A DNA stretch of 56,635 nucleotides from Saprospira grandis DSM 2844 (GTDB lineage Bacteria; Bacteroidota; Bacteroidia; Chitinophagales; Saprospiraceae). Shown here in pieces: positions 2,384 to 52,871 of the stretch. The stretch is from positions 1 through 56,635 of the forward strand of contig NZ_JH719941.1 in NCBI RefSeq assembly GCF_000275825.1, read 5' to 3'. Made by a program: the position numbers and the translations under genes. The notes below the pieces were generated by a model that made no database searches, was not told where the DNA came from, and saw nothing but the letters and a program-made list of their open reading frames with translations. The first letter of the stretch is position 1, and each line of letters starts with the position of its first letter.

Positions 2384-2496
2384 GGGGCCTCCTGCCTGCG
2401 GCAGGCGCTACGTTTCGCAGCTCGCAGGTCTGCTCGGCCCTTCGGCCTAACGGCCTCGGTCTGCGGCTTCGCCGCCCCCTTTCGCATCGCTAGGCC
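2384..2496 (+). repeat. GC-rich structured intergenic element, A type (family description)
   Basis: First A-type copy of the family. Read left to right: closing strand GGCCT; hairpin 1 (CTGCC-TGC-GGCAG); conserved CGCTACGTTTC; CTCGC; GTCTGCTCGGCCC; hairpin 2 (GGCC-TAAC-GGCC here); CGGTCTG; hairpin 3 (CGGC-TTC-GCCG); CATCGCTAGGCC ending in closing strand AGGCC. Across copies the stems change sequence but remain paired. It lies between the divergent AAA+ regulator and TetR genes, its CCCCAAAA end facing the regulator start 39 bp away. No protein is predicted. Confidence 0.85.
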
Positions 2497-2575
2497 GAGG
2501 GCCCTTTCCAAGCCTTAGGCAAAAGTTGGGGCTTTTTTGTAATTTTGGAAAACGCTCGATTTCCTTTGGGCCAAA

Positions 2576-3172
2576 ATGAAAATAAAACTTATGCCTAGTT
2601 TAGAAAAAGAAAGCAAAAAATCTCAAATTTATCGAGCCGCCGCTCAACTCTTTAAAGAAAAAGGCTATCAAGCAGCTTCCATGCGCGACCTAGCCGAGCG
2701 AGTAGAGCTTCGAGCCTCTAGCCTATATAACTACATCGGATCCAAAGAAGAGATTTTGCAGCAAATTTGTTTTGAACATGCCCAAGATTTTCTCAAAGCC
2801 ATGCAAGAGGTCGAGCAGCTGCCCATTAGCCAAGGCCAAAAAATTGAACGCCTGCTGCGCTTCCATATTCGCAAGGCCCTCAAAGAGGTCAGTAGCCTAA
2901 CGGTCTTCAATGATGAGTGGAAACACCTCAGTAGCCCCCAACTCGAAGAGTTTAGAGCCCTGCGCAAAGATTATGAAAATCGCTTTAGATCCATTATTCA
3001 GCAAGCCGTAGCTAAGGAAGAATTGCCAAATTTAGATACAGAGCTCTTGCTTTATGCCCTGCTCAATGCTATTCACTGGCTACCCAATTGGAATCATCGG
3101 AATAGCGAACTTACCGCCAGCGAATTAGAGGAACAAGTGCTGCGCATTTTGCTCAAAGGAATTCAAAAATAA
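2576..3172 (+). CDS. TetR-family regulator, likely controller of the paa region
   Basis: 198 residues. An N-terminal TetR helix-turn-helix (about 15-60: IYRAAAQLFKEKGYQAASM, then ASSLYNYIGSKEEIL) is followed by a helical ligand-binding domain. It is encoded directly before the E1/paa genes in the same direction. Two near-identical inverted repeats (3212-3227 and 6628-6643) of TetR-operator type precede the E1 gene and paaA, so it probably represses both units and is released by an acyl-CoA such as phenylacetyl-CoA. The effector is an inference from paa regulators generally. ATG at 2591 (MPSLEK) is an alternative start. Confidence 0.8.
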   Translation: MKIKLMPSLEKESKKSQIYRAAAQLFKEKGYQAASMRDLAERVELRASSLYNYIGSKEEILQQICFEHAQDFLKAMQEVEQLPISQGQKIERLLRFHIRKALKEVSSLTVFNDEWKHLSSPQLEEFRALRKDYENRFRSIIQQAVAKEELPNLDTELLLYALLNAIHWLPNWNHRNSELTASELEEQVLRILLKGIQK

Positions 3173-3211
3173 ATGCTTGAAGGCCTTTTTTTTGAAACCA
3201 AATTTATAGAA

Positions 3212-3227
3212 ACGAACATTTGTTCGT
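3212..3227. promoter_or_regulatory. Putative TetR operator before the E1 gene
   Basis: Perfect inverted repeat ACGAACA-TT-TGTTCGT, 44 bp before the chosen E1 start codon. The half-site spacing ACGAAC-N4-GTTCGT is repeated before paaA and was not seen elsewhere in the window by eye. Confidence 0.75.
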
Positions 3228-3270
3228 ATTATTTAGCTCGCCCAATTCAATCAAGAGAAATAAACTACTT

Positions 3271-5349
3271 ATGGAAAGCAATATGAGCACCCAAATCGAT
3301 AAGGCGACTTTGCGCCAATCTTTCTTTTTGGCCAGCCAAGCTAGAGCTATGGCCAGCCTTTATGAAGATAATTTCAAGTTGGTCTCTAAGTATGTGCATG
3401 CCACTTCTAGAGGGCATGAAGTTTTGCAAGTGGCCTTAGGTAGCCAATTGCTTCCTCAAGATTTTGTGGCCCCCTATTACCGCGATGATGCACTTTTGCT
3501 GGCTATTGGTATGCAGCCCTATGATTTGATGCTGCAATTGCTCGCCAAAGCAAATGATCCCTTTTCTGGAGGCCGAACGTATTATTCGCACCCCAGCCTA
3601 AAGGATGAGGATAAACCCAAAATTCCCCACCAATCTTCGGCCACAGGGATGCAAGCTATTCCCACCACCGGAGTAGCCATGGGAATCCAGTACAAAGAAA
3701 AAATGGGCCTTTATACCGAAGATTTTCAGGGCCAACTCCCTATTGCAGTTTGCTCTTTGGGCGATGCTTCAGTTACAGAGGGTGAGGTGGCAGAAGCTTT
3801 CCAAATGGCCGCCCTCAAACAGTTTCCCATTTTGTATGTGGTCCAAGATAATGGCTGGGATATTTCTGCCAATGCCGAAGAAACCCGCGCCCAAAATGCC
3901 TTTGAATATATTCAAGGTTTTCACGGCATCGAGGCCCGCCAAATCCAAGGCAATAACTTTTTAGAGAGCTATCTCGAGATTCAAGATATTCTGCGCATCA
4001 TGCGCAAAGAACGTCGCCCCTTTTTACTACACGCTTCGGTGCCCTTGCTCAATCACCACACTTCTGGAGTGCGTATGGAGTGGTATCGAGACGACCTCGA
4101 AGAACAGCGCAAATTAGATCCTACACCCATTTTTATCCGCCAAATGCTCACTGAAGGCTTTAGCCAAAGCGATATTGAAGAGATCGAACAAGCCGCCAAA
4201 GAAAAGGTACAAGCCGATTTTGAACGCGCCCTGGCCCAAGAAGACCCTCAAGCAGAAGATATTTTTAAACATGTTTATGCCCCCACGCCTGTTAGCAGCG
4301 AACAAGGCGAACGCCGCCCAGCCAATGGAGAGGAAAAAGTGATGGTGGATTCTGCTCTCTTTGCCGTTCAAGAACTCATGGAGGACCACCCCGAATGTTT
4401 GCTCTATGGCCAAGATGTGGGCGGCCGCTTAGGTGGGGTCTTCCGCGAAGCCGCCACCCTGGCCCAAAAGTTTGGCGATGACCGAGTGTTTAATACGCCC
4501 ATCCAAGAGGCCTTTATTATTGGAAGTACGGTGGGCATGGCCGCTACTGGCCTTCGCCCTATCGTAGAGGTCCAGTTTGCCGATTATATCTGGCCCGGCC
4601 TCAATCAGTTGTTTACAGAGGTTAGCCGGTCTTACTACCTCTCTAACGGAAAATGGCCCGCAAGCATGATTCTCCGTGTGCCTATCGGCGCTTATGGTAG
4701 TGGTGGACCCTATCACTCTTCTAGCGTAGAATCAGTCCTCACTAATATCAAAGGAATTAAGATTGCTTACCCTAGTAATGGCGCCGACCTAAAAGGCTTG
4801 ATGAAGTCGGCTTATTTAGACCCCAATCCCGTCGTCATTTTTGAACACAAAGGGCTGTATTGGTCTAAGGTGCCTGGCACCGCCGCCGCCCGAACGATTA
4901 TGCCCGATCGCAATTATGCTTTGCCTTTTGGCCAAGCCAATATGGTCCTAGAAGCCAGCGAAGATAAAAAGGCGGAAGGCCCCGTGGCTTTGGTCGTTTC
5001 TTATGGTATGGGCGTGCATTGGGCCCTTAATGCGGCCAAGGCTTTCCCCGGCCAAGTTTCCATTCTAGATCTCCGCACTTTGGCTCCTCTAGATACCGAA
5101 ATGATTTATACCCAGCTCAAAAAACATCACCGCTGCCTAGTCCTCACCGAGGAGCCTGTAAATTGCACTTTTGCCCAAAGTATCGCCGCCCGAATCCAAG
5201 AAAATTGCTTCGAGTCACTCGATGCCCCCGTCCAAACTTTAGGCGCAGAAGATTTACCCGCTATCCCTTTGCACGAAAATCTAGAAAAAGCCATGCTCCC
5301 CTCTAGCCAAAAGGTCCAAGCTGCTTTAGAAAAGTTACTGAAGTATTAG
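3271..5349 (+). CDS. Fused 2-oxoacid dehydrogenase E1 (alpha-beta)
   Basis: 692 residues from ATG 3271. An earlier in-frame start at 3220 would lie inside the operator and adds a non-conserved leader. The alpha half (1 to about 340) has the YYRDD segment near 69 and the thiamine diphosphate motif GDAS...N near 164-195. The beta half starts near 355 (VDSALFAVQELMEDHPE) and contains FNTPIQEAFIIGSTVGMA. Such enzymes decarboxylate 2-oxoacids and pass the acyl group to a lipoyl E2. No E2 or E3 gene is in the window. Operator sharing with paa genes suggests phenylpyruvate as a substrate, giving phenylacetyl-CoA, but branched-chain 2-oxoacids are equally possible. Confidence 0.88.
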   Translation: MESNMSTQIDKATLRQSFFLASQARAMASLYEDNFKLVSKYVHATSRGHEVLQVALGSQLLPQDFVAPYYRDDALLLAIGMQPYDLMLQLLAKANDPFSGGRTYYSHPSLKDEDKPKIPHQSSATGMQAIPTTGVAMGIQYKEKMGLYTEDFQGQLPIAVCSLGDASVTEGEVAEAFQMAALKQFPILYVVQDNGWDISANAEETRAQNAFEYIQGFHGIEARQIQGNNFLESYLEIQDILRIMRKERRPFLLHASVPLLNHHTSGVRMEWYRDDLEEQRKLDPTPIFIRQMLTEGFSQSDIEEIEQAAKEKVQADFERALAQEDPQAEDIFKHVYAPTPVSSEQGERRPANGEEKVMVDSALFAVQELMEDHPECLLYGQDVGGRLGGVFREAATLAQKFGDDRVFNTPIQEAFIIGSTVGMAATGLRPIVEVQFADYIWPGLNQLFTEVSRSYYLSNGKWPASMILRVPIGAYGSGGPYHSSSVESVLTNIKGIKIAYPSNGADLKGLMKSAYLDPNPVVIFEHKGLYWSKVPGTAAARTIMPDRNYALPFGQANMVLEASEDKKAEGPVALVVSYGMGVHWALNAAKAFPGQVSILDLRTLAPLDTEMIYTQLKKHHRCLVLTEEPVNCTFAQSIAARIQENCFESLDAPVQTLGAEDLPAIPLHENLEKAMLPSSQKVQAALEKLLKY

Positions 5350-5351
5350 TT

Positions 5352-5466
5352 GGGGCCTCCCGCCTTCGGCGGGCGCTACGTTTCAGGGCTCGCAGGTCTG
5401 CTCGGCCCTTCGCCAGCAAGCTGGCTTGGTCTGGCCCTGAGGGCCACCCTTGTACATCGCTAGGCC
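5352..5466 (+). repeat. GC-rich structured element, A type
   Basis: Closing stem GGCCT/AGGCC; hairpin 1 CCGCC-TTC-GGCGG; hairpin 2 CCAGC-AA-GCTGG; hairpin 3 GGCCCT-GA-GGGCC. It starts 2 bp after the E1 stop codon and ends 82 bp before paaE. Confidence 0.85.
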
Positions 5467-5548
5467 GCTCCACCAAATAGCTAAGGCTGGGCCTTTTTCT
5501 TTGGCCGCCTAACCACTGAAGATTGAATTTAAAAAACACTGACTATAT

Positions 5549-6619
5549 ATGACCGAATTATATCCACTCCAATTGTCTGATGTTCGCCAAGAAACAGAGG
5601 ATTGCCGCTCTTTGGCTTTTGCCATCCCCCAAAACCTCCAAGAGACGTTTAAGTTTGTTCAGGGCCAATACCTGACCCTGCAAACCAAAATCAATGGAGA
5701 AGATGTTCGCCGTAGTTACTCGATTTGCTCTAGCCCCCTAGACCAAGAGCTTCGGGTGGCCGTCAAATTATTGCCCGGCGGTAAGTTCTCTACTTTTGCC
5801 AATGAAACTCTAAAGGTAGGTGATGAGCTCTTGGCTATGCCCCCTATGGGAAATTTCTATACAGATTTAGACCCCCAACAAAGTAAACACTATTTCTGTG
5901 TGGCCGCAGGTAGTGGCATTACACCCATGATGTCGATTATCAAAACGACCCTAGAAACAGAACCCAATAGCCAGATTACTTTGCTTTATGGCAATAAAAA
6001 TACCCGAAATATTATTTTTCATGAGCAATTAGAAGGCCTGAAAAATAAGTACTTAGAGCGCTTTACGATCATTTATATCCTCAGCCGCGAAAAACTAGAT
6101 GAAGATATCCTTTTTGGCCGCATCGATGCCCAAAAGTTTGAGGCCATTAGCCAAACTTTGGTCGATCTCAATACAGTTGATGAATGTTTCCTTTGTGGAC
6201 CAGAAACCATGATTCTTGCCCTCAAAGAAGGCTTGGCCAATAAGGGCATTCCTCAAAAAAATATTCACTTTGAACTGTTTGGAACCAACCAAAAGGGCCA
6301 GAAAAAACCAGAAATTAAAAAAGAAAACCAAGGGAAAGTCGCCAAAGTAGAGGTCCGTGTAGATGGCCGCAGCTTTATGTTTGATTTGCCCTTTGGCCAA
6401 GATAATTTATTGGATGCCTCTATGAAGGAAGGTGCTGACCTGCCCTTTGCTTGCAAAGGGGGCGTTTGCTGCACCTGCAAGGCCCGACTCAAAAAAGGTG
6501 AAGTGGAGATGATGGTCAATTATGCCCTAGAACCAGAAGAGGTAGCCGATGGCCTCGTTCTCAGTTGCCAAGCTTACCCCAAATCAGAAGAAATCATGCT
6601 CGATTTTGATGATATTTAA
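5549..6619 (+). CDS. paaE: Phenylacetyl-CoA epoxidase reductase subunit PaaE
   Basis: 356 residues, the usual length. An N-terminal FAD domain carries RRSYSICSS (about 53-61) and an NAD(P) domain carries GSGITPMMSI (about 128-137). The C-terminus is a plant-type 2Fe-2S ferredoxin domain with C-x4-C-x2-C (CKGGVCCTC, about 307-315) and a fourth Cys in LSCQAYP. PaaE passes electrons from NADPH to the diiron oxygenase PaaABC, which makes the ring epoxide of phenylacetyl-CoA. It is placed ahead of the second operator, so it may be transcribed with E1 rather than with paaA. Confidence 0.95.
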   Translation: MTELYPLQLSDVRQETEDCRSLAFAIPQNLQETFKFVQGQYLTLQTKINGEDVRRSYSICSSPLDQELRVAVKLLPGGKFSTFANETLKVGDELLAMPPMGNFYTDLDPQQSKHYFCVAAGSGITPMMSIIKTTLETEPNSQITLLYGNKNTRNIIFHEQLEGLKNKYLERFTIIYILSREKLDEDILFGRIDAQKFEAISQTLVDLNTVDECFLCGPETMILALKEGLANKGIPQKNIHFELFGTNQKGQKKPEIKKENQGKVAKVEVRVDGRSFMFDLPFGQDNLLDASMKEGADLPFACKGGVCCTCKARLKKGEVEMMVNYALEPEEVADGLVLSCQAYPKSEEIMLDFDDI

Positions 6620-6627
6620 TTGAGCGT

Positions 6628-6643
6628 ACGAACAAGCGTTCGT
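6628..6643. promoter_or_regulatory. Putative TetR operator before paaA
   Basis: ACGAAC-AAGC-GTTCGT, the same half-sites and spacing as the site before the E1 gene. It lies 67 bp before the paaA start and just after the paaE stop, implying a second regulated promoter here. Confidence 0.75.
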
Positions 6644-6710
6644 ATTTTTCCTTATATTAAAGAATCGAGCCTTAAGTCTATCCTGACTAAGATGATAAAA
6701 TAGAATATTT

Positions 6711-7673: not shown

Positions 7674-7682
7674 AACGGAATT

Positions 7683-7806
7683 GGCCTAGCGATGTGAAAG
7701 GGTGGCGCAAAGCGCCAGACCAAAGCCGCCAAAGGCGGCTGCAGGGCCGAGCAGACCTGCGAGCCCTGTAACGTAGCGCCGACGAGCGAAGCGAGGCGGA
7801 GGCCCC
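7683..7806 (-). repeat. GC-rich structured element, A type, leader orientation
   Basis: The reverse-oriented copy ends GGAGGCCCCAAAA 22 bp before the paaB ATG. Closing stem pairs GGCCT with AGGCC; inner hairpins include GGCGCAAAGCGCC and AGCCGCC-AAAG-GCGGCT. It interrupts the paaA-paaB spacing within what should be one operon. Confidence 0.85.
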
Positions 7807-7828
7807 AAAACATTAAAAATAACAAGCA

Positions 7829-8113: not shown

Positions 8114-8146
8114 CCCTATTTGCTCAGACCAAAAAAACTGAATCTT

Positions 8147-8905: not shown

Positions 8906-8911
8906 TGTTTT

Positions 8912-9008: not shown

Positions 9009-9072
9009 TTAAAGAAATAAAGATTCCGTTATTTCTTTAATCCGTTAATTCTTTATTTAAAGAAATCTTTAT
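9009..9072. repeat. AT-rich palindromic repeat array
   Basis: Modules AAAGAAATAAAGATTCCGTTA and TTAATTCTTTATTTAAAGAAATCTTTAT. It ends 6 bp before the paaD ATG, so it forms the immediate upstream region of that gene. Confidence 0.75.
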
Positions 9073-9078
9073 CCCATT

Positions 9079-9570: not shown

Positions 9571-9579
9571 AAAGCAAAT

Positions 9580-11986: not shown

Positions 11987-12186
11987 GGCTTAGGGATGGA
12001 TAGCAGTGGCCGTTAGGCCAGACCCAGCAGGCGAAGCCTGCGCAGGGCCGAGCGACCCGACCAACGGGAGCCGACGCAGCGAAGCAAGTAACAGCGAGCT
12101 GCGACAACCAGCCCCTAAAGGGGCGCCAGTTCGACGACCAACGGGAGTACCCAGCCCGACCCGCCCGCAGGGCGGGGAAGCCCCCC
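11987..12186 (-). repeat. Long GC-rich structured element, B-prime type, leader orientation
   Basis: Closing stem on the minus strand GGCTT/AAGCC. The copy is about 200 bp because of an insertion of roughly 80 bp that contains hairpin GCCCCTAAAGGGGC and two copies of GACGACCAACGGGAG-like sequence. It ends 41 bp before the paaJ ATG. Confidence 0.75.
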
Positions 12187-13453: not shown

Positions 13454-13573
13454 GGGGCCTCCGCTGCGGCTTCGCCTTGCGGCGCTACGTTTCGCAGCTC
13501 GCTATTCGCTCGGCCCTTCGCCAGCTTCGCTGGCTCGGTCTGGCCTTCGGCCACTGCTGCACATCGCTAGGCC
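13454..13573 (+). repeat. GC-rich structured element, A type
   Basis: Closing stem GGCCT/AGGCC; first hairpin region CCGCTGCGGCTTCGCCTTGCGG; hairpin 2 CCAGC-TTC-GCTGG; hairpin 3 TGGCC-TTC-GGCCA. It starts 8 bp after the paaJ stop. Confidence 0.85.
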
Positions 13574-13636: not shown

Positions 13637-13701
13637 AATAAAGATTTCTTTAATTAAAGAAATAAAGAATTAACGGAATAAAGATTTAAAGAAATAAAGA
13701 A
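13637..13701. repeat. AT-rich palindromic repeat array
   Basis: AATAAAGATTTCTTTAATTAAAGAAATAAAG-type modules directly before the paaZ ATG at 13703. It therefore supplies the ribosome-contact region of paaZ. Confidence 0.75.
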
Positions 13702-15802: not shown

Positions 15803-15916
15803 GGCCTAGCGATGTGCAGCAGTGGCCGAAGGCCAGACCGAGCCAGCGAAGCTGGCGAAGGGCCGAGCAGACTTGCGAGCTGCGAAACGTAGCGCCTGCC
15901 GAAGGCAGGAGGCCCC
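15803..15916 (-). repeat. GC-rich structured element, A type, leader orientation
   Basis: Reverse copy ending GGAGGCCCCAAAA 34 bp before the next start codon. Closing stem AGGCC/GGCCT; hairpins CCTGCC-GAA-GGCAGG, CCAGC-GAA-GCTGG and TGGCC-GAA-GGCCA. Confidence 0.85.
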
Positions 15917-18154: not shown

Positions 18155-18278
18155 GGGGCCCGCGGCCAGCAAAGCTGGCCGCCGCTATGCTGCGCGGCTC
18201 GCAGGTCTGCTCGGCCCTGCAGCCGCCTCTGGCGGCTTTGGTCTGGCCCTTTGGGCCACCGCTGCGCAGCGCTGGGCC
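18155..18278 (+). repeat. GC-rich structured element, C type
   Basis: The closing stem is GGCCC/GGGCC instead of GGCCT/AGGCC, a compensatory change. Hairpin 1 is 9 bp (GCGGCCAGC-AAA-GCTGGCCGC); hairpin 2 GCCGCC-TCT-GGCGGC; hairpin 3 GGCCC-TTT-GGGCC. It is the left part of a three-piece composite with the AT array and the B element to its right. Confidence 0.85.
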
Positions 18279-18447: not shown

Positions 18448-18537
18448 AATAAAGAAATCTTTAATTAAAGAATTAACGAAATAAAGATTCCGTTAAATAA
18501 AGAATTAAAGATTTAAAGAAATAACGGAATCTTTATT
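18448..18537. repeat. AT-rich palindromic repeat array
   Basis: About 90 bp of AATAAAGAAATCTTTAATTAAAG and ATAAAGATTCCGTTA/TAACGGAATCTTTAT modules, between a C-type and a B-type GC element. Confidence 0.8.
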
Positions 18538-18581: not shown

Positions 18582-18705
18582 GGCTGAGGGATGGTAAGGG
18601 GGGGCGGCGCAGCCGCAGACCCAAGGCAGGCATCGCCTGCCTGCAGGGCCGAGCGAAGAGCGAGCCCCGACACAGCCCGACCCGCCCGCAGGGCGGGGCA
18701 GCCCC
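18582..18705 (-). repeat. GC-rich structured element, B type
   Basis: Read on the minus strand: closing stem GGCTG/CAGCC and a first hairpin CCCGCCC-TGC-GGGCGGG. Further hairpins are GGCAGGC-GAT-GCCTGCC and GGCTGC-GCC-GC. It ends next to the marC terminator. Confidence 0.8.
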
Positions 18706-21310: not shown

Positions 21311-21393
21311 AATAAAGAAATCTTTATTTAAAGATTTAACGAAATAAAGATTCCGTTAAATAAAGAATTAAAGAAATAACGGAATCTTTATTT
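21311..21393. repeat. AT-rich palindromic repeat array
   Basis: Same modules as the other arrays (AAATCTTTATTTAAAGATTT; ATAAAGATTCCGTTA...TAACGGAATCTTTAT). Its right end contains the stop codon of the recombinase gene (21388-21390). Confidence 0.8.
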
Positions 21394-22195: not shown

Positions 22196-22319
22196 GGGGC
22201 CCGCGGCCAGCAAAGCTGGCCGCCGCTATGCTGCGCGGCTCGCAGGTCTGCTCGGCCCTGCAGCCGCCTGTGGCGGCTTTGGTCTGGCCCTTCGGGCCAC
22301 CGCTGCGCAGCGCTGGGCC
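22196..22319 (+). repeat. GC-rich structured element, C type
   Basis: Almost identical to the C element at 18155-18278; closing stem GGCCC/GGGCC, 9-bp hairpin 1. The two copies differ at only a few bases (for example TCTGGCGG versus TGTGGCGG in the loop of hairpin 2), so the duplication is recent. Confidence 0.85.
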
Positions 22320-22372: not shown

Positions 22373-22446
22373 AATAAAGAAATCTTTAATTAAAGATTTA
22401 ACGAAATAAAGATTCCGTTAAATAAAGAATTAACGGAATCTTTATT
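22373..22446. repeat. AT-rich palindromic repeat array
   Basis: Modules as in 18448-18537, between C-type and B-type GC elements. Confidence 0.8.
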
Positions 22447-22558: not shown

Positions 22559-22683
22559 GGCTGAGGGATGGTAGGGGGTGGCCGAAGGCCAGACCAAGCT
22601 TTTGAGCGTAGCGAAAAAGCGCAGGGCCGAGCGAACAGCGAGCCCCCGCACAGCCCGACCCGCCCGCAGGGCGGGGCAGCCCC
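22559..22683 (-). repeat. GC-rich structured element, B type, leader orientation
   Basis: Closing stem GGCTG/CAGCC; hairpin CCCGCC-CGCA-GGGCGGG. It is preceded at 22520-22559 by an extra hairpin (CTGTGGGT-TTCC-ACCCACAG inside CGATAC/GTATCG) that accompanies other B elements. It ends 16 bp before the lipoprotein ATG. Confidence 0.8.
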
Positions 22684-27216: not shown

Positions 27217-27329
27217 GGGGCCTCCTGCCTGCGGCAGGCGCTACGTTTCAGGGCTCGCTATTCGCTCGGCCCTTCGCCAGCAAGCTGGCTCGGTCTGGCC
27301 TGACGGCCACCCTTGCACATCGCTAGGCC
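27217..27329 (+). repeat. GC-rich structured element, A type, leader orientation
   Basis: Closing stem GGCCT/AGGCC; hairpins CTGCC-TGC-GGCAG, CCAGC-AA-GCTGG and GGCC-TGAC-GGCC. On the minus strand the CCCCAAAA end faces the UMP synthase start, 40 bp away. Confidence 0.87.
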
Positions 27330-27407: not shown

Positions 27408-27490
27408 AATAAAGAAATCTTTAATTAAAGATTTAACGAAATAAAGATTCCGTTAAATAAAGAATTAAAGAAATAACGGAATCTTTATTT
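27408..27490. repeat. AT-rich palindromic repeat array
   Basis: AAATCTTTAATTAAAGATTT and ATAAAGATTCCGTTA...TAACGGAATCTTTAT modules. The purF stop codon (27485-27487) is inside the array, which may double as its terminator. Confidence 0.8.
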
Positions 27491-28918
27491 CTTTATCGCC
27501 AAACGCTCGGCCTCAATTTGGGCCAAAGCCTCTTTTGCAGCCGGGGTCGGATAAGCCCCATCCAAGCAAGCCATGCAAAAATCAGCATGCTCAAAAATAG
27601 CTTTTAGGTCCTCTAATTTTTGATAAATTAAGGCATCAGCTCCAATGTAATCGCAAATCTCTTGATCGCTGCGACCCACCGCCAATAACTCCGTACTCAC
27701 TGACATGTCAATCCCATAAATACAGGGATGCTTGATGGCCGGCGCTGCCGAAACAAAATAGACTTTTTCGGCCCCAGCTTCTCGCAAAATTTGGACGATC
27801 CGCTTGGAGGTCGTGCCCCGAACAATAGAATCATCAACTACCAATAATTTTTTGCCCTTGATGGTCCTTGCTATGGGATTGAGCTTGCGCTTGACCAAAG
27901 CCTCCCGCTCTACCTGTGAGGGCGAAATAAAACTGCGGCCAATATAATTGCTTTTGACTAAGCCCCTTTTGTAGGGAATGTCTAAGGCCTCCGCCAAACC
28001 CGAAGCCGCAAAATAACCCGAACTTGGCACATCTATAACCATATCGGCTTCTAGGCCCATTTCCCGAACTTTTTGGGCCAGCATTCTACCCATTTTTACT
28101 CTTTGACCCGCTACTAATTTGCCCTGCAACTCACTGTCTTCTCGCGCAAAGTAGATAAACTCAAACACACAGAATTTCTCCGCCGTTTTATGGCCCAAAC
28201 TACTATGCAATTGACGATTTTCATCAATAAATACAATCTCTCCCGCCTTCAATTCCCGAATGGGCGTATACCCCAAATGATCAAAACAAACACTTTCTGA
28301 AGCAAAACCATAAACGGGCTGCCCATCAGGCCCTTCTTTTTGGCCCAAAACTAAGGGCCGAATCCCATTGGGGTCGCAAAAGGCCAAAAGGCCATGATTG
28401 GCAATGGCCGCAATGACCGAATAAGCCCCATGTACCTTTTTTTGGGTCTCGCTAACGGCATCAAATATATCGGCTGGACCAATCTGGGCCAGGTCTTTTT
28501 TATTCAATTCCGAGCTAAAAGTATAGAGCAAAAGCTCTAAATCATTACTGGTCGCTGGCAAAATATGATACTCCTTATACAAGCGATTATGCACTTCTTC
28601 AAAGTTGCTCACATTGCCGTTGTGCACCATCGCAATCCCAAAAGGATAATTGGCCGCAATCGGCTGGGCGTTAATGAGTTCATTGCTGCCATGGGTGGTA
28701 TAACGCACATGCCCCAAACCAATGTTTCCCTGCAAACGATCAGCATGCCGCTGCGCAAAAACATCATTGACTAAGCCCAATCCCTTTTTGATATGAAAGC
28801 TTTTTTCAAAGGTAATAATGCCCGCCGCATCTTGCCCCCTGTGCTGCAAAGCACTCAAACCCAACATCAAGTCATAGACAATATTGGGCTTTCCATAAAA
28901 ACCGACAATTCCACACAT
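27485..28918 (-). CDS. purF: PurF, amidophosphoribosyltransferase
   Basis: 477 residues. The N-terminal glutaminase begins MCGIVGFYG with the nucleophilic Cys directly after the start Met, so no propeptide is present. The phosphoribosyltransferase half has LLVVDDSIVRGTTSKRIV (about 355-372) for PRPP binding. It carries out the first committed step, PRPP plus glutamine to phosphoribosylamine. It starts 2 bp after purN, so the two are co-transcribed. Confidence 0.96.
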   Translation of the reverse strand: MCGIVGFYGKPNIVYDLMLGLSALQHRGQDAAGIITFEKSFHIKKGLGLVNDVFAQRHADRLQGNIGLGHVRYTTHGSNELINAQPIAANYPFGIAMVHNGNVSNFEEVHNRLYKEYHILPATSNDLELLLYTFSSELNKKDLAQIGPADIFDAVSETQKKVHGAYSVIAAIANHGLLAFCDPNGIRPLVLGQKEGPDGQPVYGFASESVCFDHLGYTPIRELKAGEIVFIDENRQLHSSLGHKTAEKFCVFEFIYFAREDSELQGKLVAGQRVKMGRMLAQKVREMGLEADMVIDVPSSGYFAASGLAEALDIPYKRGLVKSNYIGRSFISPSQVEREALVKRKLNPIARTIKGKKLLVVDDSIVRGTTSKRIVQILREAGAEKVYFVSAAPAIKHPCIYGIDMSVSTELLAVGRSDQEICDYIGADALIYQKLEDLKAIFEHADFCMACLDGAYPTPAAKEALAQIEAERLAIKK

Positions 28919-29517: not shown

Positions 29518-29637
29518 GGGGCCTCCGCAGCAATGCTGCGGCGCTATGTTCCAGGGCTCGCAGGTCTGCTCGGCCCTGCAGCCGCCTGCGGCGGCTTGGG
29601 TCTGGCCCTTTGGGCCACCCTTGCACAGCGCTAGGCC
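29518..29637 (+). repeat. GC-rich structured element, A type, leader orientation
   Basis: Closing stem GGCCT/AGGCC; hairpins CCGCAGC-AAT-GCTGCGG, GCCGCC-TGC-GGCGGC and TGGCCC-TTT-GGGCCA. Its CCCCAAAA end on the minus strand lies 15 bp before purN, one of the closest cases. Confidence 0.87.
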
Positions 29638-31163: not shown

Positions 31164-31296
31164 GGCTGAGGGGCTGTAGCAGGGCCGCCGAAGGCGGCAG
31201 ACCAAAGGCTTTTGTAGCGAAGCGAAAAAGCCTGCAGGGCCGAGCGAACAGCGAGCTGCGAAATGGCCCGACCCGCCCAAAGGGCGGGGCAGCCCC
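31164..31296 (-). repeat. GC-rich structured element, B type
   Basis: Closing stem GGCTG/CAGCC; hairpin CCCGCCC-AAA-GGGCGGG differs from other B copies in its loop; hairpin GCCGCC-GAA-GGCGGC. It abuts the purB stop codon (31302). Confidence 0.8.
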
Positions 31297-33627: not shown

Positions 33628-33744
33628 GGGGCCTCCGCAGCTTTGCTGCGGCGCTACGTTGCGGGGCTCGCTATTCGCTCGGCCCTTCGGCGGCAAAGCC
33701 GCCTCGGTCTGGCCCTAGGGGCCACCCCTTCACATCGCTAGGCC
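33628..33744 (+). repeat. GC-rich structured element, A type, leader orientation
   Basis: Closing stem GGCCT/AGGCC; hairpins CCGCAGC-TTT-GCTGCGG, CGGCGGC-AAA-GCCGCC and TGGCCC-TA-GGGGCCA. Located between the purH stop and the purC start, 22 bp from the latter. Confidence 0.87.
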
Positions 33745-35429: not shown

Positions 35430-35551
35430 GGCCTAGCGATGTGCAAGGGTGGCCGTCAGGCCAGACCGAGCCAGCGAAGCTGGCGAAGGGCCGAGCAGAC
35501 CTGCGAGCCCTGAAACGTAGCGCCGCAAGGCGAAGCCGCAGCGGAGGCCCC
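35430..35551 (-). repeat. GC-rich structured element, A type, opposite orientation
   Basis: Closing stem AGGCC/GGCCT; hairpins CCAGC-GAA-GCTGG, GGCC-GTCA-GGCC and a CGCCGCAAGGCGAAGCCGCAGCGG complex at hairpin 1. Here the AGGCC end, not the CCCC end, faces the downstream gene (purH). Confidence 0.85.
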
Positions 35552-40613: not shown

Positions 40614-40729
40614 GGGGCCTCCTGCCTGCGGCAGGCGCTACGTTTCAGGGCTCGCAAGTCTGCTCGGCCCTTCGCCGCTTTCAGCGGCTCGGTCTGGCCC
40701 TGCGGGCCACCCTTCCACATCGCTAGGCC
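40614..40729 (+). repeat. GC-rich structured element, A type, leader orientation
   Basis: Closing stem GGCCT/AGGCC; hairpins CTGCC-TGC-GGCAG, CCGCT-TTC-AGCGG and TGGCCC-TGC-GGGCCA. The CCCC end faces purM. Left part of a composite with the AT array and an inverted B element. Confidence 0.87.
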
Positions 40730-40777: not shown

Positions 40778-40834
40778 TTAAAGATTCCGTTATTTCTTTA
40801 CATCTTTAATTCTTTATTTAACGGAATCTTTATT
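40778..40834. repeat. AT-rich palindromic repeat array
   Basis: AAAGATTCCGTTATTTCTTTA and TTCTTTATTTAACGGAATCTTTATT; outer halves AAAGATTCCGTTA/TAACGGAATCTTT form a long inverted repeat. Confidence 0.8.
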
Positions 40835-40939: not shown

Positions 40940-41068
40940 GGCTGAGGGATGGACAAGGGTGGCCCGCAGGGCCAGACCGAGCAAAAATGCGCAGCATTTT
41001 TTGCGAAGGGCCGAGCAGACCTGCGAGCCCTGAAACAGCCCGACCCGCCCGCAGGGCGGGGCAGCCCC
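40940..41068 (-). repeat. GC-rich structured element, B type
   Basis: Closing stem GGCTG/CAGCC; hairpin CCCGCCC-GCA-GGGCGGG; a core hairpin AAAAATGCGCAGCATTTTT unlike other copies. Preceded at 40902-40940 by the CGATAC/GTATCG hairpin with CTGTGGGT...ACCCACAG. The CCCC end points to guaB, 224 bp away. Confidence 0.8.
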
Positions 41069-46808: not shown

Positions 46809-46828
46809 TCGACATAAGCTACTTAAGC

Positions 46829-47251: not shown

Positions 47252-47352
47252 CTATCTTCTGATTTTGTTGTATCAGTATATCAGGACAAGACAGCTGCTC
47301 CTATTTAAAGACGTTCTGCCTGTTGGCTGGAAGGTCTTTTTTTTTAGGGTTT

Positions 47353-47482
47353 GGGGCTGCCCCGCCCTGCGGGCGGGTCGGGCTGTGCGGGGGCTCGCAA
47401 GTCTGCTCGGCCCATCGCTTTTTTTCGCTTTGCTCAAAAAAACTCGGTCTGGCCTTCGGCCCCCCCCTACCATCCCTCAGCC
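47353..47482 (+). repeat. GC-rich structured element, B type
   Basis: Closing stem GGCTG/CAGCC; hairpin CCCGCCC-TGC-GGGCGGG. The hairpin 2 region is altered (CGCTTTTTTTCGCTTTGCTCAAAAAAACTCGG). It is followed at 47482-47525 by the CGATAC/GTATCG hairpin. It lies 76 bp from the IS end. Confidence 0.8.
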
Positions 47483-47594
47483 GATACTGTGGGTTAAAAC
47501 CCACAGCAAAAAGGTATCGCTTCGCGATGATTTAGAAATGAGGGCTAAACCCCTCATGAACTCGCCTCTAGATGCAAAATTGGTCCATGGCGGC

Positions 47595-47684
47595 AATAAA
47601 GATTCCGTTATTTCTTTAAATCTTTAATTCTTTATTTAACGGAATCTTTATTTCGTTAATTCTTTAATTAAAGATTTCTTTATT
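47595..47684. repeat. AT-rich palindromic repeat array
   Basis: AATAAAGATTCCGTTA...TAACGGAATCTTTATT plus TTCTTTAATTAAAGATTTCTTTATT. It is joined to the B element by the CGCCTCTAGATG...CCATGG segment also found at 22446-22480. Confidence 0.8.
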
Positions 47685-47776
47685 GCCGCAAGTTACTGTA
47701 AATCAACTATTTGTATTTTGGTGGTTGCCGCTAGCTATGCTTTATTGGGCCAAATGGGCTAGGCTAAAGACAAAAG

Positions 47777-47811
47777 AAAAGGGAGTGCCTAAAGACTAGG
47801 CCTCCCCTTTT
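47777..47811 (-). terminator. Candidate terminator
   Basis: AAAAGGGAG-GCCTA (47777-47791) and TAGGC-CTCCCCTTTT (47797-47811). On the minus strand it could end the transcript of the periplasmic gene 130 bp upstream; nothing on the plus strand would use it. Confidence 0.55.
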
Positions 47812-47938
47812 ACCCTGTTTTTGTTCTTCTTTCGCTCTATTTTGTTCCTGTTTTTCCTAGGTCAAAAGAGCGGATCTAGAGCACATTTTTTAATGTTAAA
47901 ACTTAAAGCGAAAAAGTTGAGGGACTAATAAAATCCTC

Positions 47939-48931: not shown

Positions 48932-48975
48932 AAAGTACTATTTATCAGCAATTAAAATTTGTATACTTAATAGTG

Positions 48976-49047
48976 TTAAAGATTCCGTTATTTCGTTAAT
49001 TAACGGAATCTTTATTTCTTTATTTAACGGAATCTTTATTTCGTTAA
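48976..49047. repeat. AT-rich palindromic repeat array
   Basis: TTAAAGATTCCGTTATTTCGTTAATTAACGGAATCTTTA followed by TTTAACGGAATCTTTATTTCG. The first half is a near-perfect palindrome centred on TTAATTAA. Confidence 0.78.
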
Positions 49048-49093
49048 GTGATTGGACAGGCGGCTTTGCCGCCTTGGCCCGCAGGGCCAAAAC

Positions 49094-49211
49094 GGCCTAG
49101 CGATGTGGAAGGGTGGCCCGCAGGGCCAGACCGAGCCAGCGAAGCTGGCGAAGGGCCGAGCAGGCCTGCGAGCCCTGCAACGTAGCGCCGCAGCGAAGCT
49201 GCGGAGGCCCC
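49094..49211 (-). repeat. GC-rich structured element, A type
   Basis: Closing stem GGCCT/AGGCC; hairpins CCAGC-GAA-GCTGG, GGCCC-GCA-GGGCC and CGCAGC-GAA-GCTGCG. An additional GGCGGCTTTGCCGCC hairpin lies just outside at 49060-49074. Confidence 0.85.
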
Positions 49212-49230
49212 AAAAAAAGGGATAGATAAA

Positions 49231-49268
49231 AGAAATGCCCTAGTCCGGCAAAGGGATTAGGGCATTTC
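49231..49268 (-). terminator. Intrinsic terminator of the small membrane protein gene
   Basis: AGAAATGCCCTA (49231-49242) pairs with TAGGGCATTTC (49258-49268); T-rich sequence follows on the minus strand. Confidence 0.75.
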
Positions 49269-49286
49269 AAGAAAGGGGCCTAAACA

Positions 49287-49418
49287 TTAGTTAGGCATAG
49301 GGAGAGAGTCGCCATTCATGCTATAGACATAGGCCCAAAGGACGACAAAAAGGATAACAGAAAGGGCGAGTCCGAGGAGAAACTTTTCGGTTCCCCATAC
49401 TTTTTGATGATTGCTCAT
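49287..49418 (-). CDS. Small single-span membrane protein (43 residues)
   Basis: Starts ATG at 49416-49418 and reads MSNHQKVWGTEKFLLGLAL..., with a hydrophobic span (about 14-32, LLGLALSVILFVVLWAYVY) and a short polar tail SMNGDSLPMPN. A terminator lies 19 bp after the stop. Such an open frame with one clean membrane span and its own terminator is likely real. No family is recognised. It is too short to be judged by length alone. Confidence 0.65.
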   Translation of the reverse strand: MSNHQKVWGTEKFLLGLALSVILFVVLWAYVYSMNGDSLPMPN

Positions 49419-49519
49419 TGTGGTTGTATTTTCAATAGTCAGAAATCTATAGATTCAAGTGAAGGGCAAATTAAAGAAATAAGTCTAAAGAAGGCTTATA
49501 GAGGGGGGCAAAATTTGGC

Positions 49520-50476
49520 TTATTGCATAGCTTTTATTTTTTGAAAAATGCTTTTGAGGGCTCCTTTTCGGAGAAGTTGGCTGAGTTCTTTCCATCGGAG
49601 GCGTTTAAAGTAAGTTTTCATTTTTTCGGCTACGGCATAATGTTGTTTTGGGGCATTTTGGAGGGGCAGTATTTTTAGCTCTAGGGGCTGTTCGAGCATA
49701 TTTTGGCCTAGGCGGATAGCATCGCAATGGGCGCCACTGCCATCGAGGCCAATATTTTTGACCAAAGAGCGGTAGGGGTGTAGGGCGAGGCCATTTTGGA
49801 GAAAGATGCTAGCGTGCCAATGGCAGGCCCAGGTATTGAGTTGGCCAGATAGATTTTGATTTAGCTGTTTATAGAAGTCTTCTTTTTGGCCTCCATTAAA
49901 GACAAAGGGGTCATAATTCTTATTGATTTGGTTTAAGATATTGGTTGTATCATCTTGGTAATATTTCCAGGCTCTTTGCCAGCTTGCCCAGCCCCAGCAG
50001 CTATTGACATTATAAAAAAAGCTACTTCCCAGCTCCTCTTCTTCTAGTTTGAGTGGATAAATAAAGCCGCTAATGTGCATTACTTTCTCCACATCTTGAT
50101 AGAGATTTAGGGCCTGATTCATATAGCGCAGAAAATATGGGCTAGTGACAATATCGTTTTCTAGGATAATGGCTCGTCCGTATTTTTCCATCACTTCGGT
50201 TACTCCAGATACAATATTTTTGCGCAGGCCCCAATTTTCTTTCCGCTCAATAATCTGTAGTTTTTTTGCCCAAGTTTGTGCTCGGATCAATTGGCGGACG
50301 GCAGCAATATCTTCCAAATCTTTAGGGCTAGCATTGGGTTTGGGTCCATCCGAATAGATATAAATTGGGCTTTGGCTGGCCTCTTCATTTTGGGCCAAGG
50401 CGGCTAAAGTTTGGGCCAGATGATCGGGTCGTTGGTAGACAAACAGTATAACTGGGGCAAAAGTCAATAAAGACAT
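49520..50476 (-). CDS. Glycosyltransferase, GT-A fold
   Basis: 318 residues. The N-terminus PVILFVYQRPDHLAQTLAALAQ and the segment IYSDGPK (about 40-46) are of nucleotide-sugar-binding type; ILENDIVTSPYFL (about 99-111) provides an acidic metal-binding motif. Similar proteins act in polysaccharide or glycan synthesis. The substrate cannot be told. No glycan gene cluster surrounds it. It diverges from the OmpA-family gene with 91 bp between. Confidence 0.78.
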   Translation of the reverse strand: MSLLTFAPVILFVYQRPDHLAQTLAALAQNEEASQSPIYIYSDGPKPNASPKDLEDIAAVRQLIRAQTWAKKLQIIERKENWGLRKNIVSGVTEVMEKYGRAIILENDIVTSPYFLRYMNQALNLYQDVEKVMHISGFIYPLKLEEEELGSSFFYNVNSCWGWASWQRAWKYYQDDTTNILNQINKNYDPFVFNGGQKEDFYKQLNQNLSGQLNTWACHWHASIFLQNGLALHPYRSLVKNIGLDGSGAHCDAIRLGQNMLEQPLELKILPLQNAPKQHYAVAEKMKTYFKRLRWKELSQLLRKGALKSIFQKIKAMQ

Positions 50477-50567
50477 AAGTTTATGGTTGTTTATAAGGGC
50501 AAATATATATAGAAGCGCTGTATCTTAAAGGCCCCGATATCAGAACACCTATAATTTATTATTACGA

Positions 50568-51467
50568 ATGAGAAGAATAAGCTTTTGGCTCTTTTTGCTA
50601 TTGCTATTATATAGTACAAAAAGTTCGGGCCAAAAAACAGCATTTGCCGTAGAACTGGCCGCCTTTGAAAAACAAGTAGAGCTCAATTATTTTGGGCCAA
50701 TCAAAGGAGTATATGAGCTTTATGATGTCAATGATTTTTATCGCTATCAAATTCCGGCCAAAACAAAAGCCGAGGCCGAAATCCTACTGGCCGAAGTAAA
50801 AGCGGGTAAATTTCCCTATGCTCGCATCATTGATTTTAAGGCCAGAGAAGAGGCCTGCAAAAATGCTTGTGGTTTTTGGGCCCCAAAATATACGGGTCGA
50901 AACAATGATAATGACCAACAAGAAGAGGCTTGGGCCAATACCCCAAACGCCAATCCACCCAATCAACTTTTGGCCCCCAAACCAAAAAAAACAGCCCTAG
51001 CGGCCCCCAAAGAAAAACGAAGTTTGGGCAGTTTGGCCGCCCCAGAAAGAGGACTGAGCTCGGCTATATTTTTTAACTTTAATAGCAGCGATATTCCCGC
51101 AGAAGAAGGCTATAAAATCAATTATATCAGCGATCTGATGATCAAAAACCCAGAATATACTTTGGTACTTGATGGCCATTCGGATGCCATTGGCGAGGAA
51201 GACAAAAACCTCAACCTCTCTAAAGAACGACTCGAAAAAGTGATGCTCAGCCTCTTTATGAAAGGGGTGGAAGGCGAACGCATGCGAATTCGCCCCCAAG
51301 GCGAATTGGCTCCCATTGCCATCAATGAGTATCCCAATGGCAGCGATAGCCCAGAAGGCCGACGATATAATCGCCGAGTCCAACTTCAATTATTAGATGG
51401 AAATGGAGAAGAATTGCCCGTTTTGGCCCCCATCGAAATTCCCGCACAACTTAAAATTGAAGACTAA
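50568..51467 (+). CDS. OmpA-family outer membrane protein
   Basis: 299 residues. A signal peptide (MRRISFWLFLLLLLYSTKSSG) precedes a unique region and a Pro/Lys-rich linker. The C-terminal OmpA/MotB peptidoglycan-binding domain (about 165-280) shows IFFNFNSSDIPAEEGY, VLDGHSDAIGEEDKNLNLSKERLEKV and NRRVQL. It likely tethers the outer membrane to the wall. Residues 30-110 carry no recognised domain. Confidence 0.88.
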   Translation: MRRISFWLFLLLLLYSTKSSGQKTAFAVELAAFEKQVELNYFGPIKGVYELYDVNDFYRYQIPAKTKAEAEILLAEVKAGKFPYARIIDFKAREEACKNACGFWAPKYTGRNNDNDQQEEAWANTPNANPPNQLLAPKPKKTALAAPKEKRSLGSLAAPERGLSSAIFFNFNSSDIPAEEGYKINYISDLMIKNPEYTLVLDGHSDAIGEEDKNLNLSKERLEKVMLSLFMKGVEGERMRIRPQGELAPIAINEYPNGSDSPEGRRYNRRVQLQLLDGNGEELPVLAPIEIPAQLKIED

Positions 51468-51481
51468 AACAACAGTTTTAA

Positions 51482-51520
51482 GCAAAAAAAAAGGGCCTTT
51501 CGACAAGTCGAAAGGCCCTT
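51482..51520 (-). terminator. Terminator between the OmpA-family and dioxygenase genes
   Basis: A 14-bp perfect stem AAGGGCCTTTCGAC (51491-51504), loop AA, GTCGAAAGGCCCTT (51507-51520). The minus strand continues into a long T-run, so the dioxygenase gene is the main user. Confidence 0.85.
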
Positions 51521-51534
51521 GCTATTTCCCCAAA

Positions 51535-52593
51535 TTAAAGCCTAAATGATAGGTCTTTAACCAGTTTTTGATCCAATTCAGGCAGCAAATTTCTTGGAAT
51601 TAAGTAGGTGGCCAAACCCGCCAAATCGCCAAAAATGTGGTGTTTGTTCATGGCCCCTTCTAAGTATCCTGCCCCAGAAGACCCCCCAGTTCCAGCACGC
51701 ATACCAATCATTCTACGCACCATAATCATGTGCCGATAACGGAAAGTAGACATCAATTCATCCAACTCTAAGAGCTTATTTAAGAGCTGAAATGGCTGCT
51801 GCAATAAAGGATATTCTCGGTATAAATAGATAAATAATGCCGAGCGACAAGCCTTTTCACTCAATCGAACTGGGCGATTTTCTTGGGCAAAAAAGAGCTC
51901 ATCAAAGGCTTTCATACTAATTTCTGAACGCTCAGATCCCTTCAATCCCGCCAAATAAATGCCTCTATAATGAGCCCAAAATGGATGCATTTCTGAGTTT
52001 TCTTCCGCCTTTTGCTCAAAGTTTTGCCAATAATCCAATTGCCAAAAAGGCATCCGAGCCAACCAATTATCCAGTAATTCAAACAAAGAAAGACTGTTTT
52101 CTGCCGCTTTTATAGCCTCAATATGCTCCACCCTAAGCTGCTTTTCATAGTATTTTTTAGCATGGCGATGATCCATTTTTAAGCCCAAACGAGTCTCAAT
52201 TAAACGAAATTGAAAGCTCTGAAAACCCGAAGCAGGAGTCAGTAAATCTCTAAAATCTAAGAAATCCATAGGCGTCATGGTCTCCATAACCCGCACCTGA
52301 GCTACCAATAATTTCCAAATTTCTACCACCCGATTCAAACGATGTGTAGCCACCTGCAAGCCCTTAGAATTGTCATTGATATACTGCTCATCAAAGATAT
52401 TTAAGATAGAACTCAACTCATGCTGAACCTGCTTAAACCAAAGCTCATATGCCTGATGCACAATGATAAACAACATCTCATCATGCGCATCTACCCCCTG
52501 GGCCTCACTTTCCAATTGCTGGGCAGACAAAATTTTATCTAAACCCAAATAGTCATTGTAATACTGCTCTTTACCAGTATAAGAGTTTTTCAT
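51535..52593 (-). CDS. kynA: Tryptophan 2,3-dioxygenase
   Basis: 352 residues from ATG 52593 (MKNSYTGKEQYYN); a TTG farther up adds an unrelated 17-residue leader. The family features HQAYELWFKQVQHEL (distal-pocket His and hydrophobic residues, about 45-60) and FRYRHMIMVRRMIG with the heme-ligand His (about 290) are intact. It opens the indole ring of tryptophan to N-formylkynurenine. No other kynurenine gene is nearby. It forms its own unit ending at the 51482-51520 terminator. Confidence 0.94.
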   Translation of the reverse strand: MKNSYTGKEQYYNDYLGLDKILSAQQLESEAQGVDAHDEMLFIIVHQAYELWFKQVQHELSSILNIFDEQYINDNSKGLQVATHRLNRVVEIWKLLVAQVRVMETMTPMDFLDFRDLLTPASGFQSFQFRLIETRLGLKMDHRHAKKYYEKQLRVEHIEAIKAAENSLSLFELLDNWLARMPFWQLDYWQNFEQKAEENSEMHPFWAHYRGIYLAGLKGSERSEISMKAFDELFFAQENRPVRLSEKACRSALFIYLYREYPLLQQPFQLLNKLLELDELMSTFRYRHMIMVRRMIGMRAGTGGSSGAGYLEGAMNKHHIFGDLAGLATYLIPRNLLPELDQKLVKDLSFRL

Positions 52594-52702
52594 AGTAGCT
52601 GTTTTAGTGCGACTCTCCGCCGCGTTTCCTGCAACTTTAGGCAATTTTTAGCAGCTCTCCAATTCCAAATCAAAATTCTAAGTCAAGTATAATATTTTGG
52701 CT

Positions 52703-52748
52703 TTTAAGCATACGTTTCTCTAATTTTTTCCCCTTTAAGCATACGTTT
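52703..52748. repeat. Direct repeat TTTAAGCATACGTTT, two copies
   Basis: Exact 15-bp copies at 52703-52717 and 52734-52748 (31 bp apart) upstream of the dioxygenase gene. It could be a binding site for a regulator of that gene. Confidence 0.6.
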
Positions 52749-52753
52749 TTTTA

Positions 52754-52871
52754 GGGGCCTCCGCAGACAAGCTGCGGCGCTACGTTACGGGGCTCGCAAG
52801 CCTGCTCGGCCCTTCGGCGGACAAGCCGCCTCGGTCTGCCGCTTCGCGGCCCCCCTCCACATCGCTAGGCC
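52754..52871 (+). repeat. GC-rich structured element, A type
   Basis: Closing stem GGCCT/AGGCC; hairpins CCGCAG-ACAAG-CTGCGG, CGGCGGA-CAA-GCCGCC and CCGC-TTC-GCGG. The last is a different sequence from the common GGCC hairpin yet still pairs. Confidence 0.87.

Follow-up and report, generated by a model that had tools for sequence, protein, structure and literature searches.

The stretch analyzed here (the window, 56,635 bases) is the entire contig C1 of the five-contig, 4,495,250-base genome of the marine predatory bacterium Saprospira grandis DSM 2844 (G000). It is a complete Saprospira plasmid carrying a Rep3 initiator and purine genes, and a 12-kb piece of it is 92–93% identical to plasmids of S. 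grandis Lewin, S. grandis WH, and Saprospira sp. CCB-QB6. Scattered over both of its strands are copies of a repeated intergenic element that is the subject of this work: the repeat is real, its fold is constrained, and its shape is maintained, and the placement of its copies is not random. An earlier note, made from the sequence alone, had counted about 22 copies of roughly 115–200 bp; the repeat family stands, with 21 copies (the number also recovered by a covariance model, R1) that measure 113–142 bp where both ends are plain.

Read 5′ to 3′, the element opens with a T-tract (T in 80–96% of 238 copies at positions −4 to −1) and GGGGC, followed by the first arm of a closing helix of the form GGxxx/xxxCC and by hairpin A. 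Next come a short arm, a strand such as CTACGTTTC, and a 4-nt arm, then CTCGC, a linker that is either of the AGGTCT or of the TATTC type, and GCTCGGCC. Hairpin C, GGTCTG, and hairpin D follow, and the 3′ part is made up of the second 4-nt arm, a strand of 7 nt, CGC or CCC, and the second closing arm. The 4 nt before CTCGC pair with 4 nt about 70 nt downstream to form a long-range helix. The earlier note lacked this helix and the short one outside it, as well as the T-tract ahead of GGGGC and the alternation in orientation described below; it had listed four closing-stem forms. Three of these (GGCCT/AGGCC, GGCCC/GGGCC, and GGCTG/CAGCC) are as described, and the fourth, GGCTT/AAGCC, is complete at 393–534; in the copy at 11987 only the 3′ arm AAGCC is plain because the 5′ part has been remodelled. 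The inner hairpins of the window copies do change sequence yet remain paired, as had been claimed, and the pieces between the stems are less constant than proposed: CGCTACGTTTC is exact in seven copies, the copies with GGCTG/CAGCC stems carry GGGCTGT instead, and TCTGCTCGGCCC alternates with TATTCGCTCGGCCC-type linkers. RNAalifold adds a predicted GGCC/GGTC base to hairpin C and a predicted GC/GC closure of the linker, neither of which can be tested by covariation since they never vary.

The core of the element, CTCGC-N5/6-GCTCGGCCCT, has 1,315 exact matches in the genome (657 forward and 658 reverse), one per 3.4 kb, while the reversed pattern has none, and the family is therefore not due to chance. 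Four of the six genomes of the genus hold 1,263–1,315 core matches and two hold none. A strict pattern matched 10 of 120 genomes of the family, including a genome of another genus (G102) with 512 matches. R1, built from 60 inner domains of one genome, was used to score the best 150 candidates in each of ten genomes chosen as pattern-positive (eight) or pattern-negative (two), and found copies in eight of the ten: all 150 candidates scored in G041, 147 of 150 in G018, and only three or four in three others. Counting the R1-positive genomes and G102, nine other Saprospiraceae genera carry copies. A looser pattern matched 46 of 298 genomes of the order, with many single matches no better than the reversed control, and 3 of 296 genomes were positive in a scan of the phylum using the best 14 candidates per genome. 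Because R1 derives from a single genome and scoring was confined to the best candidates, the numbers of copies in other genera are minimum values, and the scan of the phylum is insensitive. Decayed copies are few: 9 of 277 R1 matches scored under 43 bits, and two of these 9 belong to a single copy split at the border of a stretch. On contig C2, a 26-kb region (79038–104918) has no detected copy and is flanked by two copies in the same orientation. Rfam gave no match at the gathering score in the window and none at E ≤ 0.1 in four loci (29,276 bases), ARAGORN found no tRNA gene in the window, and searches of the open-licence literature returned no earlier description of the element.

To characterize the fold we gathered 254 core matches from the window and 800 kb of chromosome, of which 248 were parsed and 6 dropped as unparsed, with column shuffles, slid partners, and linkage among modules as controls. 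The 4-nt arms occur as AGGG/CCCT (58 copies), GCAG/CTGC (57), GGGG/CCCC (54), GTGG/CCAC (15), GCCG/CGGC (8), GCGG/CCGC (5), and rarer forms, amounting to ten fully paired forms. The full 4-bp long-range helix is present in 202 of the 248 copies, compared with a mean of 72.7 and a maximum of 94 in 1,000 shuffles, and another 15 copies pair with a one-base shift. The two arms of a helix are the most strongly linked modules, with mutual information above shuffles of 1.77 bits for the long-range arms, 1.30 for the closing arms, 0.98 for the short arms, and 0.70 for the base of hairpin C. The long-range arms share only 0.05–0.11 bits with the modules they enclose, the linker and the hairpin-C base, and this near-zero linkage led us to reject shared ancestry as the chief cause of covariation in this helix. 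Single-copy folds sometimes pair the 5′ arm with a nearer CCCT/CTGC after GCTCGG, but the linkage there is 0.06 bits, and this alternative was also rejected.

An alignment of 60 copies, in which 17 pairs were tested and the closing stem and hairpin A left out, had 94.0% of cells paired (70.1% when shuffled), a covariation score of 0.566 (0.164 shuffled, at most 0.159 with slid partners), and 235 two-sided changes versus 2 one-sided; of five measures in all, the count of pairs showing a two-sided change and the number of pair types did not rise above shuffles. Twenty-four matches from seven genomes of seven other genera gave 94.1% paired, 79 two-sided changes versus 1 one-sided, and a score of 0.379 versus 0.128, in an alignment that includes one weak match and was fitted to the model, and so is biased towards it. 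Together, the linkage of the long-range arms and the covariation in the 60 copies support the maintained pairing described in the earlier note, well beyond what shared ancestry provides.

Sixty-one chromosomal copies were compared with the genomes G001, G002, and G004 (183 comparisons, 140 mapped and 43 unmapped, the latter numbering 11, 12, and 20). The core pattern was found at 137 of the 140 mapped orthologous sites (49/50, 48/49, and 40/41), and the one exception in G002 is a degenerate but plain copy. In the sampled regions, place and orientation are kept across the four Saprospira genomes and hairpins are replaced wholesale. A detailed set of 157 comparisons (111 chromosomal, with flanks 91.7% identical, and 46 plasmid) showed how often each part differs: hairpin C 121 times, hairpin A 100, the linker 98, hairpin D 96, the long-range 5′ arm 56, and the closing 5′ arm 15. 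The two long-range arms had both changed in 45 comparisons, 38 of them fully paired in both copies, and one arm only in 17. Inner domains are presumably replaced through gene conversion among copies; over longer time, inner parts are reshuffled while the long-range arms stay together. Among 317 changed hairpins (A and C), 16 had an inverted loop on a kept stem (such as AAA to TTT), and 8 of these inversions involved a single base. With 137 of 140 mapped sites occupied in the three genomes, presence/absence differences of the MITE type are nearly absent, isolated cases being one plasmid site replaced in QB6 and two sites with an extra copy in relatives. A module of the form GTTACTCCCTTTGGTCGTCGAACTGC-hairpin-TTGTTGTCG replaces part of some copies, at sites orthologous to 2384, 15803, and 49094 in L035/L036 or L039/L040 and in some C2 copies, and at the QB6 site of 15803 it stands in place of nearly the whole copy.

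Neighboring copies mostly lie in opposite orientation. Model-based detection on the 800 kb of chromosome found 211 of 253 neighbors opposite (binomial p = 2.8e-28, a value that, like the other binomial p-values here, treats neighboring pairs as independent), and another 400 kb gave 103 of 123. The four related plasmids (17/19, 21/22, 21/22, and 18/20, or 77/83) and the orthologous 200-kb stretches of relatives (50/60, 51/59, and 51/60) have the same order, being orthologous to DSM 2844 and hence not independent of it. The weakest of the 277 R1 matches (E 0.014) was omitted from the count; by its position, counting it would replace one same-orientation exception with two alternations. By gap size on the 800 kb, alternation was 37/37 below 600 bp, 55/59 at 0.6–2 kb, 65/80 at 2–4 kb, 47/68 at 4–8 kb, and 7/9 beyond. 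Opposite-strand neighbors less than 500 bp apart were convergent (3′ to 3′) in 51 of 51 cases, the median interval was 1.2 kb for convergent and 3.9 kb for divergent neighbors, and there were no divergent intervals below 1 kb. When convergent pairs closer than 600 bp were removed, alternation in the two chromosomal samples was 141/179 and 73/93, and with those below 2 kb removed it was 63/85 and 31/47. Neighboring single copies outside convergent pairs (2.5 kb limit) alternated in 29/35 and 17/22 cases on the chromosome (46/57).

At 3–4 kb, 34 of 43 first neighbors were opposite and 20 of 25 second neighbors were in the same orientation, so that order matters and not distance alone; second neighbors below 3 kb were few (5/11 the same). 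An avoidance of direct repeats that depends only on distance fails on this result and on the asymmetry between convergent and divergent intervals, although it may operate below 3 kb. Same-strand copies within 3 kb made up 2.5% and 9%, compared with 30.5% for random intergenic placement, and 3.3% and 1.6% in the other 400 kb; we do not claim their regular spacing as separate evidence, since alternation with short and long gaps would yield much of it. Seventeen same-orientation exceptions were checked in three relatives each (51 comparisons). At two of the 17, all three relatives have an opposite copy in between, indicating that copies do get lost; among the 51 comparisons, 11 shared the exception as such, 24 were unmapped, 3 had fewer copies, and 7 had another pattern. 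Of 106 convergent neighbor intervals, 28 enclose one gene and 22 enclose two, and one pair encloses purH. Strand counts were near equal in each of eight 100-kb bins, giving no sign of an effect of replication direction (the origin was not located). Overall, Saprospira has a strong order, one other genus a moderate one, and the small sample from a third genus none.

Gene context was taken from a simple gene call of our own with the copies masked; unmasked, stop-free open reading frames (ORFs) run through the GC-rich copies (84 of 247 lie 'inside' ORFs). Among 246 copies, 84 are sense and 84 antisense to neighboring genes, 34 lie between convergent genes, and 44 between divergent genes, and with sense equal to antisense we rejected a tie to the direction of neighboring genes. 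Sense copies between co-directional genes start a median of 14 nt past the stop codon. Watson-Crick pairs occupy 1,173 of 1,190 positions in the closing stem and 952 of 992 in the long-range stem. A-C mismatches outnumber G-T by 15 to 2 in the long-range helix and by 40 to 13 in hairpin C, but G-T outnumber A-C by 5 to 1 in the closing stem and by 105 to 5 in hairpin A; with signatures opposed in different helices, no strand stands out as a folded RNA. A promoter role for the T-tract was rejected, as the promoter motif TAnnTTTG precedes the element in only 2 of 238 copies. The two-sided changes without G-U steps, the lack of gene bias, and the lack of a consistent strand signature lead us to lean towards an element that acts as folded DNA rather than RNA.

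Copies of the element in the window (position 1 is the first base of contig C1).
Position	Strand	Closing stem	Remarks
393–534	−	GGCTT/AAGCC	long third hairpin
2384–2496	+	GGCCT/AGGCC	
5352–5466	+	GGCCT/AGGCC	begins 2 nt past stop of preceding ORF
7683–7806	−	GGCCT/AGGCC	
11987–12150	−	3′ arm AAGCC	remodelled 5′ part and extra hairpin; 5′ limit uncertain
13454–13573	+	GGCCT/AGGCC	
15803–15916	−	GGCCT/AGGCC	QB6 plasmid has a shorter, different module at this site
18155–18278	+	GGCCC/GGGCC	left half of convergent pair
18582–18705	−	GGCTG/CAGCC	right half of convergent pair
22196–22319	+	GGCCC/GGGCC	left half of convergent pair
22559–22683	−	GGCTG/CAGCC	right half of convergent pair
27217–27329	+	GGCCT/AGGCC	
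29518–29637	+	GGCCT/AGGCC	
31164–31296	−	GGCTG/CAGCC	
33628–33744	+	GGCCT/AGGCC	one side of purH
35430–35551	−	GGCCT/AGGCC	other side of purH; 17-nt overlap with mechanical ORF start
40614–40729	+	GGCCT/AGGCC	left half of convergent pair
40940–41068	−	GGCTG/CAGCC	right half of convergent pair
47353–47482	+	GGCTG/CAGCC	
49094–49211	−	GGCCT/AGGCC	
52754–52871	+	GGCCT/AGGCC	

The plasmid holds other repeats. Arrays of 8-bp words with TAAAG, CTTTA, TAACG, or CGTTA cores lie at 631–692, 9010–9071, 13639–13699, 18450–18535, 21313–21390, 22375–22444, 27410–27495, 40779–40832, 47597–47682, 48977–49046, and 52927–52980. There are 11–12 such arrays per plasmid in all four Saprospira plasmids; the chromosome has none in 800 kb, one weak array in 400 kb, and none in two 200-kb stretches. 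We considered the element and these AT-rich arrays as one composite and rejected this, as the arrays are nearly confined to plasmids and are not part of the element. They are candidate dispersed plasmid partition sites, and the plasmids of relatives are annotated with a ParA gene. A 145-bp repeat has three copies near the Rep3 gene (3–147, 214–358, and 56407–56551), positions 40–231 and 56444–56635 are 98% alike, and this is probably the replication region of a circular plasmid. In the related plasmids, which are typed as non-mobilizable, genes of purine, pyrimidine, and phenylacetate pathways are annotated; together with the purine genes here, this makes the plasmid look like a second chromosome-like replicon.

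Among known repeats, a close likeness is to REP/BIME sequences, which are abundant, extragenic, hairpin-forming, and mosaic, with close copies oppositely oriented; their palindromic features are kept despite sequence changes, and roles in chromosome organization and termination have been proposed (PMC2817692). The element is likewise abundant, extragenic, hairpin-forming, and mosaic, with close copies in opposite orientation. REPs, as described in the same source, are single palindromes that usually stand in clusters or doublets and are associated with RAYT genes (PMC2817692), whereas the element is 113–142 bp long, has several helices including a long-range one, shows no RAYT link, and alternates in orientation even between copies kilobases apart. 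Families of stem-loop sequences in bacterial genomes are repeated and intergenic and share a secondary structure (PMC2267715), and the element resembles them in all of these respects, a comparison that extends to their general description only. Template switching is a mechanism that perfects stems and flips loops (PMC8794818). Some loop flips do occur among copies of the element. As generally understood, the mechanism acts on neighboring arms and would not on its own account for a helix with arms some 70 nt apart. Repeats of the ERIC, BOX, Correia, and MITE types are also intergenic, about 100–200 bp long, and modular or palindromic, and they differ in presence between strains; to our knowledge they have no order of orientation. 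On these general features, the element is similar in size and intergenic place and is set apart by its orientation order and steady presence. Its multi-branch outline is like that of tRNA and other structured RNAs, with no tRNA or Rfam match.

We tentatively favor, at somewhat less than even confidence, a host-maintained family of intergenic DNA elements that acts through its folded shape, a BIME-like organizer of the chromosome. One strand would fold when supercoiling or replication opens the DNA, and a host protein would read the constant pieces (CTCGC, GCTCGGCC, and GGTCTG) positioned by the stems. Stem sequences would be free to change through gene conversion among copies, provided that both arms change together, and oppositely oriented neighbors would be paired anchors that partition chromosome and plasmid into segments of a few kilobases, akin to the chromosome-organizing role proposed for BIMEs.

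The main rival, which we consider doubtful but well short of improbable, is a neutral, ancient, and no longer mobile repeat whose copies are kept alike and whose stems are kept perfect by ectopic gene conversion and by template switching at hairpins, with alternation arising as neighboring direct copies are lost through deletion of the DNA between them. Block-wise replacement of inner domains at orthologous sites fits this explanation, as do the hairpins with inverted loops and kept stems (a sign of template switching), the rarity of same-strand copies and of second neighbors within 3 kb (the latter not mostly same-oriented), the copy loss seen at two exceptions, and the element-free genomes of the genus. 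Deletion and inversion should act equally on convergent and divergent inverted pairs, however, yet the close pairs are convergent only, and same-orientation second neighbors are common at 3–4 kb; this explanation, although the strongest rival, covers neither of these. It would also predict many mismatched arms where conversion tracts end between the long-range arms, and few were found, and decayed copies are few. Alternation might instead be a by-product of a palindromic composite of two convergent copies as the spreading unit; the 37 neighbor pairs below 600 bp on the 800 kb are all convergent, and alternation weakens as convergent pairs are removed. We nevertheless regard this as improbable, given that singles outside pairs alternate too, that many convergent intervals enclose genes, and that G102, with no gap below 2 kb, alternates in 22 of 26 cases at 2–8 kb (a range picked after seeing the data).

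A family of structured RNAs, each copy transcribed and acting in cis (by 3′ end protection or termination) or as one of many small RNAs, would explain the strong covariation, the multi-branch layout, the invariant G-T at the base of hairpin C and the G-T pairs in hairpin A, and the start of sense copies shortly after stop codons. We think it unlikely, because antisense copies are as common as sense, 44 of 246 copies lie between divergent genes, two-sided changes far outnumber one-sided ones, the mismatch signatures point to different strands in different helices, and promoter motifs and Rfam matches are nearly or entirely absent. Mobilization of a REP/BIME system by a RAYT (Y1 transposase) was rejected as highly improbable. 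The element is palindromic, intergenic, abundant, and alternating, and DSM 2844 has one Y1_Tnp gene (C2:124969–125307, the only one found). The nearest copy, at 126417, lies more than 1 kb from it, and Y1_Tnp genes occur in all six genomes of the genus (one to three each), including the two without the element, compared with four of six for the repeat core. The element is also much longer than a REP, shows almost no presence/absence differences in the sampled region, and lacks a universal GTAG head: CTAC (GTAG on the other strand) occurs in one class of copies only, the others having GGCTG, GGCCC, or CTATG. The Y1_Tnp gene, which is IS200-like, itself has similar sequences on its two sides, which form a direct repeat distinct from the element.

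Several results weigh against the favored reading. When convergent pairs below 3 kb were removed, alternation fell to 41/59 (p = 0.004) and 19/31 (p = 0.28, not significant), and on the plasmid it was 11/14 after removal of those below 600 bp and 5/8 after removal of those below 2 kb. Alternation in G102 was moderate (30/44, p = 0.02, with 8/18 beyond 8 kb), and G041 had none (4/11, or 6/12 with one weak match). Two genomes filed in the same genus lacked copies by pattern or by R1 among the best 150 candidates each. In six single copies, the DNA folding energy was unexceptional for composition (z −0.13 to −4.42) and the lowest-energy fold often lacked the long-range helix. Hairpin A has G-T at 105 of 1,234 positions, many from one recurrent form, and the invariant GGCC/GGTC base holds a G-T pair in the 60 copies, which an RNA reading of this strand would favor. 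The outer modules are linked to one another (0.13–0.78 bits: 0.13–0.44 with the long-range arms and 0.41–0.78 among the outer modules), so ancestry is not wholly broken up there and the case for the closing stem is weaker. Of the 45 comparisons in which the two long-range arms had both changed, only 5 retained the linker and only 1 hairpin C; as the modules between the arms nearly always change with them, many of the double changes reflect replacement of a whole block rather than separate compensatory mutations. The earlier note had named a lack of covariation, or variants made by duplication alone, as findings that would speak against selection on structure. Covariation is clear, and a qualified form of the second point holds through these block replacements.

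This family separates two things that are usually mixed, in that the shape is kept and the sequence is not, and its shuffled inner modules form an unusually clean natural test of what maintained pairing looks like once recombination has broken up shared ancestry. A more specific proposal, which we put forward as speculative and rather unlikely, is an orientation code in which more than 1,000 folded DNA marks, mostly in the order + − + −, would stand at fixed sites with their stem sequences exchanged and give chromosome and plasmid oppositely bounded segments of a few kilobases. If true, it would be a bacterial counterpart, in logic and not in parts, of the oriented boundary sites of eukaryotes. 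The order of orientation over hundreds of copies raises a testable question: what sets the domains of a bacterial chromosome.

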